This document shows, in pieces, positions 48,561 to 57,874 of a stretch of 64,000 bases of DNA; within the stretch, counting starts at the first letter, position 1, and each line of letters starts with the position of its first letter. The stretch is from Halosolutus gelatinilyticus (lineage in GTDB: Archaea; Halobacteriota; Halobacteria; Halobacteriales; Natrialbaceae). The DNA is taken from contig NZ_CP095491.1 of assembly GCF_023028105.1 (NCBI RefSeq), forward strand, positions 2,604,001 to 2,668,000, written 5' to 3'. Both the position numbers and the translations under genes were made by a program. A model generated the notes under the pieces. That model saw only the letters and a list, made by a program, of their open reading frames with translations, was not told the origin of the DNA and ran no database searches.

Positions 48561-49490
48561 ATGAGCGACTTCGATCAGTTCAGTGAGGTCGGCGAAGCGG
48601 ACGTAACGCGCGCGATCGGACAGGAGTGGACCGAGGAGTTCATGGACTTCTCGGACTCCGACGTCATCATCGTCGGCGGCGGCCCGTCCGGGCTGACCGC
48701 CGCCAAGGAACTCTCCGAGCGGGGCGTGAAGACGATGGTCGTCGAGAAGAACAACTACCTCGGCGGCGGCTTCTGGCTCGGCGGCTTCCTGATGAACAAG
48801 GTGACGGTCCGCGACCCCGCCCAGCAGATTCTCGACGAACTCGACGTCGACTACAAGCAGGCCGCCGACAGCGAGGGACTGTACGTCGCCAACGGACCCG
48901 AGGCCTGTTCCGGGCTCATCAAGGCCGCCTGCGACGCGGGCGCGAAGATGCAGAACATGACCGAGTTCACCGACATCGTCATCCGCGAGGATCACAAGGT
49001 CTCGGGGATCGTGATGAACTGGACGCCGGTCCACGCCCTGCCCCGCGAGATCACCTGCGTCGACCCGATCGCCGTCGAGGCCGATCTGGTCATCGACGCG
49101 ACCGGCCACGACGCGATGGCGATCACGAAACTCGACGAACGCGGCGTGCTCGACGCGCCCGGCGTCAAGGACGCCCGCGAGCGCGGCCAGGTCATGGACC
49201 AGACCGGCTCCGACTCCTACGGCGCGCCCGGTCACGACTCGCCCGGCCACGACTCGATGTGGGTCGGCAAGTCCGAGGACGCCGTCGTCGAACACACCGG
49301 CCTCGTCCACGACGGCCTCGTCGCGACCGGGATGGCCGTCGCGACGGCCTACGGCCTCCCGCGGATGGGGCCGACGTTCGGCGCCATGCTCGTCTCCGGC
49401 AAGCGCGCCGCCCAGGAGGCGATCGACGAACTCGGCGTCGACGCCGATCCGGTCGACATCACCAGCCGCGCGACCCCCGCCGACGACTGA
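48561..49490 (+). CDS. thi4: thiamine thiazole synthase Thi4
   Basis: A 309-residue NAD-dependent enzyme that makes the ADP-thiazole precursor of thiamine from NAD and glycine. Dinucleotide-binding loop [19 protein letters not shown], conserved [13 protein letters not shown] and, near the end, [15 protein letters not shown]. The residue in the sulfur-donor position is cysteine (C166 in [14 protein letters not shown]), as in yeast and Haloferax Thi4, whereas methanogen enzymes with histidine use free sulfide. It should therefore act once, giving up its own sulfur. A thiamine-type regulator gene lies 8 kb away at 57874. Confidence 0.95.
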
Positions 49491-49634: not shown

Positions 49635-51452
49635 GTGAATCCCTTCGAACTGATGTCGATCGACCCCGCCGCCGTCGGCGTCGTCTACGTGGGGATCGGC
49701 ACGCTCTCGCTTGGCTTTCTCAGAACCGCCTACAGGTATCGCGAAAAGCCCGGGAGTACCGGGTTCGCCCTTCTCGTGATCGCGATCGGCCTGTGGTCGA
49801 CCAGCGTGGGCGTCGGGTACGCGATCGATCGGGTGGCGGGGTCGATCGCGATCTACGCGCTTCGGATCCTCGCGGCGCAACTGGTCGCCGTCGGCTGCGT
49901 CCTGCTGGCCGTCGAGTACACCGATCAGCGCGACGTCTCGGCCGCGGTGGCCGCCGTGCTGATCGGCTATCTGCTCGCCGGCCAGGCGTTCGTCTGGACG
50001 AACGGCGCGCACGGACTCGTCTTCCGCGTCGGCTCCGGCGGGGCCGGAACGCTGTTCTTCGACGTCGACTACGGCCCCGTCTTCTGGCTCCACTCCGGAC
50101 TCGGGTACGCGCTCGTCGTCCTCTCGAGCGGGCTGTTGATCGTCGAGTTCTGGAGTTCGACGGGCGCCCGTCGACGACAGAGCGCCATCCTCGCGCTCGC
50201 GCTGCCGTTTCCGCTGCTCCTGAACGCCGTCTCGAACCTCGACGTCGTCCCGGTGTCGTACGATCTGACGCCGATCGGCTTCCTCGCGAGCGAGGTGCTC
50301 TACACGTGGGCGCTGTACGGCGCGGGATTTCTCAGCGTCGTCCCGATCGCCAGGCGGACGGCGATCGACGCGATGGACGACCCCTACGTCACGCTCGACC
50401 GGGAGCGGATCGTGGTCGACCTCAACGACGCCGCCGCGCGGATCCTCGACGTGGACGACGGCGTGGTCGGGGCGCGCGCCGAGAGCGCGTTCGCCGATCA
50501 CCCGGCGCTCGTCTCCGTTCTGGCGGACGGCGAGACGGCGCAAGCGGAGCTCACGATCGACGGCCGGGACGAGCGCTACCACTTTCACGTGACGCTGACG
50601 CCGCTGTCGCGCACGTCGAACCACCGCGGAAGCGTGCTCGTCATGCGCGACATCTCGTCGCTGAAACGCCGGGAGGAACAGCTCCGACGGCGGGAGGCCG
50701 AACTGGATCTCCTCCGACAGGTGTTCACCCGCGTGCTTCGACACAACCTCCGGAACTCGCTTTGTATCGTCAACGGTCACGGCGAGACGATCGCGGCGGA
50801 GGCCGACGAGCCGTTCGCCGATATGGGGGCCGCGATCGCCGCGGAGGGCGACCACCTCGACGCCCTCGCGCAGAAGACCACGACGATCGCCCGCCTCGTC
50901 GACGACCACGAGATCGTGCGCTACGATCTCGTCGATCGGGTCCGATCGATCGCCGACGCGATCGCGGACGACCATCCGAACGCGACGATCGAGTGCTCGC
51001 TCCCCGATGCGGCGCCGATCATCGCGAGCAACGGCCTCGACGCGGCGCTCCGGAACCTGATCGAAAACGCCGTCGAACACGGCGCTCCGAACGCCGACTC
51101 GCGCGCTCGCGAGGACGACTCGGTGCAACGCTCCGCGGGCTCTCGACCGGACGCCTGCGAGACCGACGCATCGAGGACGAGCGACGGCCCGACGGTTCGA
51201 ATCGGCGTCCGTCGGAGCGGCGAGACGACGACGCTCGAGATCGCCGACGACGGACCCGGCATTCCCCAACACGAGATCGACGTCCTCCGGGAGGGACGGG
51301 AGACGACCCTCGAGCACGGCAGCGGGCTCGGGCTCTGGCTCGTCGACTGGGTCGTCGCCCACTCCGGCGGCGACCTCTCGTTCGAGTCGACGGCGGCGGG
51401 AACGACGGTCGCGGTCCGGTTCGAGGCCGCCGCGTCCGACGCGATCGACTGA
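49635..51452 (+). CDS. histidine kinase with 7TM sensor and PAS domain
   Basis: A 605-residue sensor kinase. Residues about 10-235 form a seven-span N-terminal sensor (VVYVGIGTLSLGFL; ALLVIAIGLWSTSVGVGYAI; SAAVAAVLIGYLLAGQAFVW and others). A PAS domain (about 245-345, DPYVTLDRERIVVDLNDAAARI) is followed by a short coiled coil. The phospho-acceptor box is VLRHNLRNSLCIVNGHGE and the ATPase motifs are LRNLIENAVEHG, IADDGPGIP and HGSGLGLWLV. The insert within the ATPase (APNADSRAREDDSVQRS...) is disordered. GTG start at 49635; ATG at 49653 is an alternative. No response regulator gene is adjacent. Confidence 0.93.
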   Translation: MNPFELMSIDPAAVGVVYVGIGTLSLGFLRTAYRYREKPGSTGFALLVIAIGLWSTSVGVGYAIDRVAGSIAIYALRILAAQLVAVGCVLLAVEYTDQRDVSAAVAAVLIGYLLAGQAFVWTNGAHGLVFRVGSGGAGTLFFDVDYGPVFWLHSGLGYALVVLSSGLLIVEFWSSTGARRRQSAILALALPFPLLLNAVSNLDVVPVSYDLTPIGFLASEVLYTWALYGAGFLSVVPIARRTAIDAMDDPYVTLDRERIVVDLNDAAARILDVDDGVVGARAESAFADHPALVSVLADGETAQAELTIDGRDERYHFHVTLTPLSRTSNHRGSVLVMRDISSLKRREEQLRRREAELDLLRQVFTRVLRHNLRNSLCIVNGHGETIAAEADEPFADMGAAIAAEGDHLDALAQKTTTIARLVDDHEIVRYDLVDRVRSIADAIADDHPNATIECSLPDAAPIIASNGLDAALRNLIENAVEHGAPNADSRAREDDSVQRSAGSRPDACETDASRTSDGPTVRIGVRRSGETTTLEIADDGPGIPQHEIDVLREGRETTLEHGSGLGLWLVDWVVAHSGGDLSFESTAAGTTVAVRFEAAASDAID

Positions 51453-51653: not shown

Positions 51654-54227
51654 ATGATTCCGACCCGGATCGCCGTCGACGAGACGCTTCCCGCGCACGG
51701 ACCGATCAGGTACGCGCTGGCGGAGTACGCGGCGGCGAACGTCGGGGAGGATGCCGCGATCAGCCGCCTCCACCGGGTCTTTTACCCGGTGTTCCGCGTC
51801 GAGTACGCATACGAGGCGCCGGGACGGCTCCCTTGGGGCGACTCGAGCGAGCGCGCGGTCGCGCTGCTGGATGGACTCTGGGCCGACAACCACGCGGCGC
51901 TCCAGCGGTACCGATCGCCGACGTCGTCGACCGTGGATATCTCGCTCGAAGGCTATGACTTCGGCCTCGACGAGACGGGGCTCGGACGATCCGTGCTGCT
52001 CGAGTTTCGGGTCCCGACCCGGCGGGCGAAGCGGCTGCTTCCGGAGCGGTTCGACGACCTCCGGCAGTCGGCGGCGTTCGACGATCCGCGATCGGTCACC
52101 GACTCCTTCGCCGACACCCTCCGGGAGACGTTCGGGCTCCCCGACGGCGTCGACGCCGGGACGTTCGACGAGGTGGTCGACGTGACGCGGCTTTACCTGC
52201 CGTTCTGGGTGGCCGAGGTGTACCGCCCCGACGAGCGCGACCTGATCGGCGTCGTTCGCAGCGTCGAGGACGTCCGGACCGACGGCTCGACGAGTCACGA
52301 CTGGCTCGCGTCGTTCCTCCGCGAGGACACCGAGCGACTGGCGCGGTACGCCCACACGACGATCCGGCGGACGATCGACGGCACGCCGACGGCCGACGAG
52401 TCGGCGACGGACGAGACCGGAGCCGCGTCGACCGACGGGGACGCCGCGGTCGCAGACGGGACCGCGGCCGCGACCGAACGGGAGTCCGGCTCGGCGGCGG
52501 AGGCCGACTCGCCCCGCGACGAGGCGGACTCCACGCCCGGCGACGAGCCGATCCAGCCCGAGGAGGCCGACCTCGAGGCCGCCTACCTGGTCGATCAGAG
52601 TCCCGATCGCTGCTTCGCCGACGTCGGCGGGATGGCCGACCTCGAGTCGACGCTCCGGCGGTCGGTGATCGGCCCGGTCGAGCGGCCCGAGCAGTTCCGG
52701 GAGTACGGTCTCGATCCCGTCTCCGGCGTCCTGCTGTACGGTCCGCCGGGCTGCGGGAAGACCTACGTCGCCGCCGCACTGGCGGGCGAACTCGACTACG
52801 CCTTCCTCGAGGTGACGCCCGCGGACCTCTCGAGCAAGTACATGGGCAAGCCCGCGGAGAACGTCCGAGACGTCTTCGCGATCGCCAAAGCGAACCAGCC
52901 CTGCGTCCTCTTTCTCGACGAGATCGACGCGATCGCGAGCGCCCGCGAGGAGCAGTCGAGCACGAGCGAGCGGGGCATGGTCAACCAACTGCTGACGGAA
53001 CTCGAGGACGTCGCGGGGTCGGAGGTGCTCGTGCTCGCGGCGACGAACCTGCTCGACGACGTCGACGACGCCATCCTCCGGACGGGCCGGTTCGACGAAC
53101 GAATCGAGGTGCCGCCGCCGGACGCTCCCGCGCGACGGGAGATCCTCGAGATCCACCTCGAAGGGCGACCGCTCGCGGACGACCGCTCGCTGTCGCCCGT
53201 CGTCGATCGGACAGCCGGGTACGCGTCGAGTGATCTCGAGTACGTCGTCGCCGACGCGGCCCGGCGGGCGCTCCGCGACGGGTCGCCGATCGAAACCGCG
53301 GACCTGCTGGCCGCCGTCGACGACACGGACTCGAGCGTCCCCGATTGGGGCGGGAGCGCGGTCGGCGACGGCCGGACGGTGACCCAGCCCGACGGCGTCG
53401 ACCTGAGCGCCCGATCGCTCGTCGCGACGGATACGGGACGGACCTTCGCCGACGTCGGCGGGATGGGCGACCTGAAAGCGCGACTGCGCGAGACCGTCGT
53501 CGACCCCTTCGAGAACGCCGATCGGTACGCGGAGTACGGCCTCGCCGCGACGAACGGCGTCCTGCTGTACGGCCCGCCGGGCTGCGGGAAGACCTACCTC
53601 GCGGGGGCGCTGGCCGGCGAACTCGACGTCGCCTTCCTCGAGGTGACGCCCGCGGACCTGACGAGCAAGTGGATGGGCAAGCCCGCACAGAACGTGGCCG
53701 ACCTGTTCGCGATCGCCCGGGCGAACCAGCCTTGCGTCGTCTTTCTCGACGAGATCGACGCGGTCGCGGGTCGGCGAGCGGGGCGCGACGGCGCCAGCCA
53801 GCGCCAGATGGTCAACCAGTTCCTGACGGAACTCGAGACCGTCGACGGCGACGACGTCGTGGTCGTCGCCGCGACGAACCGGATCGACGACGTCGACGAC
53901 GCCATCCTCCGATCGGGCCGGTTCGACGAGCGGATCGAGGTGCCGCCGCCGGACGCCCCCGCGCGACGGGAGATCCTGCAGGTTCACCTCGCCGATCGGC
54001 CCCTCGCCGACGGCGTCTCGTGGACGGCTCCCGTCGAGTACACGGCCGGATACGCGGCGAGCGATCTCGCCTTGCTCGCGGACAACGCCGCCCGGAAGGC
54101 GATGCAAGCGGGGGATCTCGTTCGCGAACGGCACCTCTTGGAGGCGGTCTCGGAGACACGATCGAGCATCGAGACCGACGGGAACGCGGCCGGCGCCGGT
54201 CGGCCGGTAGAGAGCTGGTACCGCTGA
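51654..54227 (+). CDS. double AAA+ ATPase (CDC48/VCP-related) with unusual N-terminal domain
   Basis: An 857-residue protein with two AAA modules. Module 1: Walker A GPPGCGKT 363-370, Walker B VLFLDEID 418-425, LAATNLLDDVDDAILRTGRFDERI. Module 2: Walker A GPPGCGKT 640-647, Walker B VVFLDEID 695-702, VAATNRIDDVDDAILRSGRFDERI. The N-terminal ~240 residues do not look like the CDC48 N-domain; they contain two similar strands (RVFYPVFRVEYAYEA and LYLPFWVAEVYRPDE), then an acidic linker (245-305). AAA proteins of this group unfold or pull apart protein complexes; the target is unknown. It stands alone on the plus strand. Confidence 0.9.
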   Translation: MIPTRIAVDETLPAHGPIRYALAEYAAANVGEDAAISRLHRVFYPVFRVEYAYEAPGRLPWGDSSERAVALLDGLWADNHAALQRYRSPTSSTVDISLEGYDFGLDETGLGRSVLLEFRVPTRRAKRLLPERFDDLRQSAAFDDPRSVTDSFADTLRETFGLPDGVDAGTFDEVVDVTRLYLPFWVAEVYRPDERDLIGVVRSVEDVRTDGSTSHDWLASFLREDTERLARYAHTTIRRTIDGTPTADESATDETGAASTDGDAAVADGTAAATERESGSAAEADSPRDEADSTPGDEPIQPEEADLEAAYLVDQSPDRCFADVGGMADLESTLRRSVIGPVERPEQFREYGLDPVSGVLLYGPPGCGKTYVAAALAGELDYAFLEVTPADLSSKYMGKPAENVRDVFAIAKANQPCVLFLDEIDAIASAREEQSSTSERGMVNQLLTELEDVAGSEVLVLAATNLLDDVDDAILRTGRFDERIEVPPPDAPARREILEIHLEGRPLADDRSLSPVVDRTAGYASSDLEYVVADAARRALRDGSPIETADLLAAVDDTDSSVPDWGGSAVGDGRTVTQPDGVDLSARSLVATDTGRTFADVGGMGDLKARLRETVVDPFENADRYAEYGLAATNGVLLYGPPGCGKTYLAGALAGELDVAFLEVTPADLTSKWMGKPAQNVADLFAIARANQPCVVFLDEIDAVAGRRAGRDGASQRQMVNQFLTELETVDGDDVVVVAATNRIDDVDDAILRSGRFDERIEVPPPDAPARREILQVHLADRPLADGVSWTAPVEYTAGYAASDLALLADNAARKAMQAGDLVRERHLLEAVSETRSSIETDGNAAGAGRPVESWYR

Positions 54228-55364: not shown

Positions 55365-56132
55365 ATGGTCGAACGCGTTATCTGCTATCGGGCGCCCACC
55401 ACCGTCGCCGACGTCGACGCGATCGCCGACTGGCTCGCGGAACGGGTCGACGCGACGGTCGAAACCCGGGAGCGATTCCTCGACGTCCACCGCACGGACG
55501 GCCTCGCGGAGCGGTTCGCCGAGGCGCGCGTGCGCTCACCCTACGATCGCGACACGGGCAACGCGATGCTCGGGACGATCCGGTACGAGGAGCGCGCCCT
55601 CGAGAATCCCGAGCGCGAAGGGGGCGTCCTCTACGACGGCGTGGGGATCCAGCGGGCGCTCAACGCCGCGCTTCCCGCCGCGGAACGGGGGCTCGAGACG
55701 CTGCACGTGGCGGTTCTCGATCGGGCGATCGGAACCTGGGGCGACCACGACGGCCGCTGGCACAAACGTGTGAACGTCCTCGGGCAACCGGCGATCGTCT
55801 CGGTGCCCGGCCTCTACGAGGCGCCGGCGAAGCCGGAAGAGTATTACAAGGAGAAGCAACGACACGCCCTGCTCTCGGGCGATACGCCGCCGCGGGAAGT
55901 CCTCGAGAACCGGGTGGACGGAGAGTTCCTGATCGAGGACGACCCGCGGACGACCGACGCGCTGTGCGGGTACGTCCTGCAGGCCTACGACGTCCTCGAA
56001 ACGGGCGAGGCGTTCTGCGATCGCGAGGGGTGTCGGCTCTACAACGCCCACTACCACGAGGGCCTGATCGAGGCCCAGCTTCGCGATCCGGAGTTCTGCG
56101 ACGAGCACGATCGGCTGTACGGGACGGCGTGA
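55365..56132 (+). CDS. DUF6775-like putative metallopeptidase
   Basis: A 255-residue protein I recognise as a haloarchaeal family labelled DUF6775 putative metallopeptidase, similar to archaemetzincins at its C-terminus (CDREGCRLYNAHYHEGLIEA and FCDEHDRLYG, with Cys/His spacing like the archaemetzincin zinc knuckle). A strict HExxH motif is not visible; HYHEGLIE and WGDHDGRWHKR are the candidate metal sites. The N-terminus is VERVICYRAPTTVADVDAIADWL. Cytosolic. Function unproven. Confidence 0.65.
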   Translation: MVERVICYRAPTTVADVDAIADWLAERVDATVETRERFLDVHRTDGLAERFAEARVRSPYDRDTGNAMLGTIRYEERALENPEREGGVLYDGVGIQRALNAALPAAERGLETLHVAVLDRAIGTWGDHDGRWHKRVNVLGQPAIVSVPGLYEAPAKPEEYYKEKQRHALLSGDTPPREVLENRVDGEFLIEDDPRTTDALCGYVLQAYDVLETGEAFCDREGCRLYNAHYHEGLIEAQLRDPEFCDEHDRLYGTA

Positions 56133-56974: not shown

Positions 56975-57874
56975 TCAGATGAGCGATCGGATCGTATCCG
57001 CGACCGACTCGGGGTCCGGTCCGAGCACGTAAGTAATGGGTTCGATCCCCATGCCGCCGGTCTGGTACAGCACGGTCGCGTCCGGTTCGGCGTCGAGCGC
57101 GTCGGCGACGCTCGAGGCGACGTCCTCGGCCTCGTCGAACTCGGCGGTCACGTGACCGCGGTCGGTCAACTCCGCGAGCAGTTTCGGGTCGTACCTGATG
57201 TTGATCCCCGCGGAGACGTCCGCGCCCGATCGCCGTGCCGCGAGCAGGACCGTCGCGACGTGTTCGGAGACGCCGAACTCGGGATCGGCCGGCACCGTCG
57301 CCTTCCCCTTCACGTCGAAGATGCGGCCGGGGACGCCGGCGACGTCGTCGATGCCCTCGGCGTCGGGGGTGCACGCGACCAGGTTCGAGCCGACGGCGGG
57401 GATCAACCCGGCGAAGCCGCTCGCGTTCTCCAGGATGCGCAGCCCGCGACGGAGCGAGGAGAGGACGCGCTCGCTGGTCCGGAGGTCGCTCTCCGGGTCG
57501 TGGACGCGGAAGCTCTCGCCGTGGTCGGCGAGTTCGGGGACGGCCTCCTCGTGCAACTGCGCGAGCAGGTCGCCGCCGGTCTCGAGTTCCCGGATGAGGA
57601 CCTCGATCTCGATCAGCGCCCGGACGGGCCTGACGTCGCCGGCCGCGAGTCCGTCCGCGAGCTCGTCGACGAGGGCTTCGACGCGCCGATCGTTGGCGAT
57701 GCGATCGTTGACGGTGACGTCGCCGTGGGCGTACTTGGAGACGGCGCTCTGGCTGATTCCGAGGACGTCGGCGACTTCGCTCTGGGTGAGCCCTCGATCG
57801 CGCAGCGCACCGGCGAGCAGCGACCTGACTGTCGGGAGAAACTCATCGACGACGATCTCTTCGACGAATTGCAT
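56975..57874 (-). CDS. thiR: ThiR-like HTH regulator with ThiN domain
   Basis: A 299-residue protein. An N-terminal Xre-like helix-turn-helix (LTQSEVADVLGISQSAVSKYAHG) is joined to a C-terminal ThiN thiamine-phosphate-binding domain (residues about 135-299: LRILENASGFAGLIPAVGSNLVAC, GRIFDVKGKATV, ISAGINIRYDP-like, LYQTGGMGIEPITYVLG). In archaea such fusions repress thiamine biosynthesis and transport genes when thiamine phosphate is high. thi4 at 48561 is the obvious candidate target in this window. The start at 57874 is fixed by the conserved MQFVEEIVVDEFLPTVR. Confidence 0.9.
   Translation of the reverse strand: MQFVEEIVVDEFLPTVRSLLAGALRDRGLTQSEVADVLGISQSAVSKYAHGDVTVNDRIANDRRVEALVDELADGLAAGDVRPVRALIEIEVLIRELETGGDLLAQLHEEAVPELADHGESFRVHDPESDLRTSERVLSSLRRGLRILENASGFAGLIPAVGSNLVACTPDAEGIDDVAGVPGRIFDVKGKATVPADPEFGVSEHVATVLLAARRSGADVSAGINIRYDPKLLAELTDRGHVTAEFDEAEDVASSVADALDAEPDATVLYQTGGMGIEPITYVLGPDPESVADTIRSLI

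Follow-up and report, generated by a model that had tools for sequence, protein, structure and literature searches.

In AAA machines, the N-terminal domain selects the substrate. The 64-kb stretch of Halosolutus gelatinilyticus DNA analysed here (the window) encodes a tandem AAA+ ATPase whose N-terminal domain (N-domain) matches no catalogued family. This raises the questions of which protein the ATPase could act on and how its rings relate to those of CDC48, to which the original prediction had likened it. In most genomes that carry it, the gene lies near thi4, and we tentatively propose the thiazole synthase Thi4 as its substrate.

Architecture and distribution of the tandem ATPase

The gene starts with an ATG whose position agrees with that of its relatives in the alignment, and its 857-residue product consists of the N-domain, a linker and two AAA modules, D1 and D2 (Table 1). 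Walker A, DEID and an aromatic pore-loop pattern are present in both rings of the window protein, which identifies it as an AAA+ double ring and represents the expected equipment of a protein-threading motor. All 33 intact family members have Walker A in both rings. The pore-loop pattern, which is our own, fits both rings in 27 of the 33 and a single ring in the other six, and the DEID match is missing from one or both rings in some of them. An acidic linker had been predicted, and a hand count on the window protein agrees, yielding 20 Asp or Glu residues and two Arg at approximately residues 243–310.

Table 1. Features of the tandem ATPase gene and its neighbours, in window coordinates
Feature	Position	Strand	Basis
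thi4, thiazole synthase, Cys type (PREITCVDP), proposed substrate	48561..49490	+	TIGR00292, 221.5 bits (cut-off 148.3)
Histidine kinase (HisKA_7TM, PAS, HATPase_c); separates thi4 from the AAA gene	49635..51452	+	Domain matches
Tandem AAA+ ATPase gene	51654..54227	+	857 aa; relatives in 35/292 genomes
N-terminal domain, residues 1–242, probably a duplicated repeat	51654..52379	+	No hit in the family databases or PDB; profile similarity to HerA-like C-termini
Repeat 1 core strand, residues 41–53 (RVFYPVFRVEYAY)	51774..51812	+	R41, V42, Y44, P45 and Y53 invariant (n=18 sequences)
Repeat 2 core strand, residues 179–191 (RLYLPFWVAEVYR)	52188..52226	+	R179 and L182–W185 invariant (n=18 sequences)
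Acidic linker, residues 243–310	52380..52583	+	Length varies between relatives
First AAA module (D1), approx. residues 316–560	52599..53333	+	Walker A, DEID, pore loop KYMG, RTGRFDE
Second AAA module (D2), approx. residues 595–835	53436..54158	+	Walker A, DEID, pore loop KWMG, RSGRFDE; 64% identical to D1
DUF7001/DUF6775 gene ('probable metallopeptidase' in Pfam), frequent neighbour downstream of thi4	55365..56132	+	Domain matches
HTH-ThiN protein, probable thiamine regulator (presumably ThiR), part of the old thi4 block	56975..57874	-	ThiN, 1.2e-50

A profile of the N-domain (A1), built from 18 sequences, was searched in 292 haloarchaeal genomes of the class and gave one match in each of 35 genomes, distributed over 14 out of 78 genera; the window's genome has a single copy. 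Every one of the 35 N-domains is joined to AAA modules or to what is left of them: 33 of the genes are open, and two (L044 and L047) are broken, with the reading frame lost behind the N-domain. The gene is, therefore, dispensable in those two genomes and under loss in some lineages. A single-sequence scan had given 38 out of 292 genomes; G178, G116 and G269 were dropped because their matches were short, lay in reading frames containing stops and had E values of 6e-4 or worse.

The profile search proposed in the original prediction, on whether the domain occurs alone or in other proteins, has a clear outcome: in the haloarchaeal genomes searched it is always joined to these rings, and it occurs alone once, on a plasmid. 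This stand-alone relative, annotated as a 'hypothetical protein' of 272 aa, is encoded on plasmid NZ_CP129994.1 of Salinibaculum sp. KK48 (L164:7893-8711) and shares 29% identity with 79% of the query length (E 2e-7). Nearby genes carry the annotations flap endonuclease and B12-dependent ribonucleotide reductase. A search with this protein retrieved no second stand-alone relative in the 292 genomes or in the plasmid set, and viral contigs contained no relative of the N-domain.

The rings were also searched by profile at E≤1e-160, which gave matches in 39 out of 292 genomes. Sister twin-ring AAA proteins (L148, L246–L254) were observed in 10 of these 39 genomes; in these proteins, hydrophobic N-termini (by eye), presumably membrane-spanning, replace the N-domain. 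A gene beside three of the sisters is, by eye, one that we take to be aIF5A-like. In G204, a second AAA gene near thi4 (L148:13711-14922), also of the membrane type, is shorter, encodes only one, divergent AAA module and adjoins the full-length gene.

Linkage to thi4

In 32 of the 35 family genomes, thi4 is encoded on the same strand as the AAA gene at a distance of 0.9–12.7 kb (measured between the low coordinates of the matches). The AAA gene precedes thi4 in 26 of these, and thi4 precedes the AAA gene in the other six, namely the window's genome and five related ones, of which two have a broken AAA gene. The thi4-first order, probably the result of one event in related genomes, was also found with an open AAA gene in Natrarchaeobius chitinivorans (L039) and Natrinema salsiterrestre (L040), which are not among these six. 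The distance amounts to 9.6–12.7 kb in 15 genomes (13 of genus g31, G265 and G161); in the three that were read, the gap holds opposite-strand genes that look by eye like a hut operon. A close copy of the window's histidine kinase was present between the two genes in no other family locus searched. The original prediction that the unusual N-domain might choose a different set of targets is plausible and now has a named candidate: the N-domain tracks the vicinity of thi4 (32/35), and sisters with another N-terminus are found near it in 1 out of 10 cases (G204), four of the others being at least 82 kb from thi4 on a shared contig and five on separate contigs.

The three unlinked genomes are G204 and G214, in which the two genes lie on separate contigs, and G274, in which 670 kb separate them. 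The G274 thi4 gene (G274:C1:1965255-1966172) encodes a Thi4 of a distant type, 71% identical, whose gene lies far from the old block described below. The AAA gene has stayed together with PPS and the ThiN regulator in this genome, which looks like a case of thi4 replacement.

The neighbourhood belongs to an old haloarchaeal block composed of pantoate kinase, PPS, the AAA gene where present, thi4, DUF7001/DUF6775, a methyltransferase, the HTH-ThiN regulator and a last gene that we take to be dcd. This block also occurs without the AAA gene: PPS is upstream of thi4 in 7 out of 11 hand-picked stretches from family-free genomes (L152, L153, L154, L158, L159, L161 and L162). The linkage count, therefore, overstates the evidence, as much of it may be inherited synteny. 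Conservation of the block without the AAA gene agrees with a general protein quality-control or assembly unfoldase that occupies its position in the vitamin block by historical accident, as do the patchy presence of the family and the two broken genes. We consider such a general role possible but somewhat unlikely, given that the linkage to thi4 outlived a rearrangement and is rare among the sisters with another N-terminus.

The same block offers other partners. In 26 out of 35 family loci, the gene immediately upstream of the AAA gene is PPS, which overlaps it by 4 bp in both loci read closely (L145 and L049); the contig of L062 starts at that point, and no PPS was seen there in L042–L047, L058 and L059. 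These data, together with the PPS-AAA pair kept in G274 away from thi4 and the position of three out of ten sisters (L249, L250 and L254) beside pantoate kinase, would suit an ATPase that serves coenzyme A synthesis, with PPS or pantoate kinase as its partner and thi4 merely next in the block. This is an unlikely alternative: neither gene was found in the 18–19 kb stretches examined in the six thi4-first genomes or in the whole 64-kb window, so thi4 is the partner that stayed. To our knowledge, neither PPS nor pantoate kinase needs an unfoldase. Thi4 is favoured over PPS on the basis of the rearranged group, which probably goes back to one event, and of the scarcity of sisters near thi4; G274, with PPS kept and thi4 lost from the block, speaks against Thi4.

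A putative Thi4-directed unfoldase

Our preferred, though tentative, reading of the gene neighbourhood is that the protein is a putative unfoldase directed at Thi4. Yeast and plant Thi4 supplies sulfur from its own active-site cysteine and is consumed in a single reaction (PMC8454699). In a study of the Haloferax enzyme, HvThi4 needs the Cys, its single use is presumed and the spent enzyme is expected to accumulate; removal of the latter through SAMP and the proteasome is the authors' suggestion, and the removal route is left open (PMC4215014). The motif with this cysteine, ITCVDP, was found in 17 out of 17 thi4 genes of the first loci examined. Since a suicide enzyme is needed in stoichiometric amounts, a motor for its disposal would pay. 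In the proposed mechanism, the N-domain would be a protein-recognition module that brings Thi4 to the ring, and the most useful cargo would be its spent dehydroalanine form, unable to work again. ATP-driven threading would then dismantle the Thi4 oligomer, leading to its degradation or to release of the bound product; the step after unfolding could be either of these or another remodelling.

The thi4 gene was detected in 270 out of 292 haloarchaeal genomes. Most haloarchaea with thi4 have no gene of the ATPase family, so the ATPase would have an accessory role, and the other genomes would rely on a general route. The Thi4 tail was inspected by eye as a possible degron: its last residues are PADD or close to it both in genomes that have the ATPase and in those that lack it, with no distinguishing signal. 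Rubisco activase type AAA+ proteins, which service one metabolic enzyme, offer a parallel in that an AAA+ motor is encoded near the enzyme to be serviced; in our case, the servicing function is a predicted one. If the ATPase acts on Thi4, the removal of spent Thi4 becomes a testable question.

DUF7001/DUF6775 is encoded downstream of thi4, on the same strand and within 8 kb, in 17 out of 34 thi4 stretches, some of which end sooner. It was found in 10 of the 21 stretches with the AAA gene and in 7 of the 13 without it, and the open frames adjoin in five. A more specific and rather doubtful proposal is that the N-domain reads spent (dehydroalanine, product-bound) Thi4 and feeds it to the non-CDC48 twin-ring motor, which would make the protein a machine dedicated to clearing or recovering a single-use enzyme; the DUF6775 'probable metallopeptidase' might act as the last step.

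The rings form a family separate from CDC48

Like CDC48/CdcH (p97), the window protein has two AAA rings behind an N-domain, with Walker motifs, DEID and pore loops. It differs in its score against the CDC48 model (TIGR01243), which is 379.1 bits and thus 424 bits short of the 802.65-bit cut-off (the genome's own CdcH reaches 1022.2 bits), in its lack of CDC48_N and CDC48_2, and in the grouping of its rings. The highest NCBIfam score of the whole protein corresponds to PAN (PRK03992), with 428 bits over two stretches, below the 500-bit cut-off; PAN is a single ring. The C-terminus of the window protein, WYR, resembles a proteasome-docking end, which it shares only with L043 among the 33 intact members (L046 ends in WYHH). 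HbYX docking to the proteasome was, thus, rejected as a family feature, and this also separates the family from PAN.

Seven other AAA matches, 35–42% identical over parts, were found in six proteins of the window's genome: L002, which scores as CDC48, L003, the double-ring L005/L006 on a 200-kb contig, and the single-ring L004, L007 and L008. We reconstructed a ring tree with 28 family modules (D1 and D2 of 14 members) and the rings of these proteins. The family D1 and D2 modules form one clade against the rings of all six proteins (support 100/98) and against L002, L003 and L005 alone (100/100); the CDC48-type rows come from this one genome only, and L002 is the only one scored against the CDC48 model. 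Constraining the family D1 to group with D1 of L002, L003 and L005 costs 95.9 log-likelihood units (AU p 9.05e-67). D1 and D2 identity ranges from 44 to 71% in the nine members compared, and from 49 to 54% in L002, L003 and L005.

At the sequence level, D1 and D2 are each other's nearest relatives, and the twin ring would derive from a duplication of its own, unless early homogenisation occurred. The label 'CDC48-like' of the original prediction is, therefore, not retained. That the protein is a genuine CDC48, a CdcH paralogue with a replaced N-domain, is highly improbable: it has two AAA rings, 40–42% identical to those of the genome's CdcH, but the family modules form one clade against the three CDC48-type proteins of the same genome and the CDC48 pairing is rejected, although the same picture could arise if the two modules had been homogenised early. 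As judged from its sequence, the protein is a double-ring AAA+ family of its own, separate from CDC48, with a predicted unfoldase activity. This suggests that double rings of the CDC48 kind arose repeatedly in archaea.

The N-terminal domain and a repeat in HerA-like ATPases

According to the original prediction, the N-domain lacks the CDC48 double-psi barrel and matches no other known adaptor, and our searches support this. Residues 1–242 have no Pfam or NCBIfam match at E≤1, CDC48_N and CDC48_2 included, and no PDB sequence match at E≤10, whether searched alone or with a profile of 18 rows. In a control search, CDC48_N (8e-24) and CDC48_2 (2.2e-16) were recognised in the CdcH of the same genome, and the match of the CDC48 model to the window protein begins only at residue 316, which corresponds to profile position 172. 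A confident match of residues 1–240 to a known N-domain, which would have contradicted the prediction, was sought in these searches and not found. Among the 18 members, DUF5848 was matched in two (best E 0.0012) and DUF7012 in one. An extended profile gave four weak PDB matches to RNF213 (best E 0.04), taken as chance. The available portion of PMC4158269 contains nothing on the N-domain. A search of an open-access library found no account of this finding; the one paper there that mentions thiazole synthase, Cdc48 and archaea together (PMC7325993) concerns chromosome proteins.

AlphaFold2 models were of low confidence and are given no weight. With four sequences, residues 1–242 were modelled at pLDDT 44.2 and pTM 0.33, with an order of strands and helices that resembles two similar halves; residues 1–93 gave an all-helix model (pLDDT 47.7, pTM 0.32).

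The strands at residues 41 and 179, from whose similarity an internal duplication had been predicted, are among the best-conserved stretches of the N-domain. Within the family alone, the signal is weak: the two halves align with each other by hhalign at 2% (E 0.022), and another cut gave P 0.014, with two out of 100 column shuffles as good. An alignment of 20 rows (A3), searched against 392 genomes of the phylum, gave weak matches outside the family in seven genomes. The match in G588 (L169:367-2148), a HerA-like (DUF87) ATPase matched twice (E 0.006), was retained because of its two matches and because its family gave profile-profile matches. The match in G447 has a lower E value (5e-4 vs 0.006) and falls in the least conserved middle part of the N-domain; the protein is membrane-permease-like, and the match was taken as chance. 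So were those in G351, G456 and G511, on reading of their sequences, and those in G021 and G545.

The HerA-like C-terminal region (L169 in G588; L196–L215) was found in 45 out of 119 genomes of one other archaeal class of the phylum. It consists of a repeat, a winged helix (MarR_2 matches in 11 out of 19) and a second repeat; the repeat itself matches no named Pfam or NCBIfam family above the cut-off in the proteins scanned. By hhalign, the whole N-domain aligns with this region at 85% (E 6e-6), and its first half aligns with HerA-like repeat 1 at 95% (E 2.4e-8) and with repeat 2 at 92% (E 7.4e-7). The two HerA-like repeats align with each other at 91% (E 1.2e-6). The second half of the N-domain matches the two repeats weakly (13%, E 0.0022, and 5%, E 0.007). 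All six repeat pairs align the same Y.P strand, and in each of them none of 60 column-shuffled controls reaches the score. Both halves of the N-domain fall in the same register on the two HerA-like repeats, the first strongly and the second weakly. Thus, the N-domain is probably a duplicated repeat, as predicted, although the case depends on these relatives.

A kinship of the repeat with PepSY (PF03413) is hinted at by weak matches in 4 out of 19 HerA C-termini (best E 0.021), which fall below the cut-off (11.2 vs 24 bits in the one shown); PepSY was absent from the matches of the 18 members of the window's N-domain family. The HerA-like proteins differ from the tandem ATPase in being another kind of ATPase and in having the repeat region at the C-terminus, split by the winged helix. 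The similarity, strongest with the first half of the N-domain, suggests a small repeat common to two unrelated kinds of archaeal ATPase.
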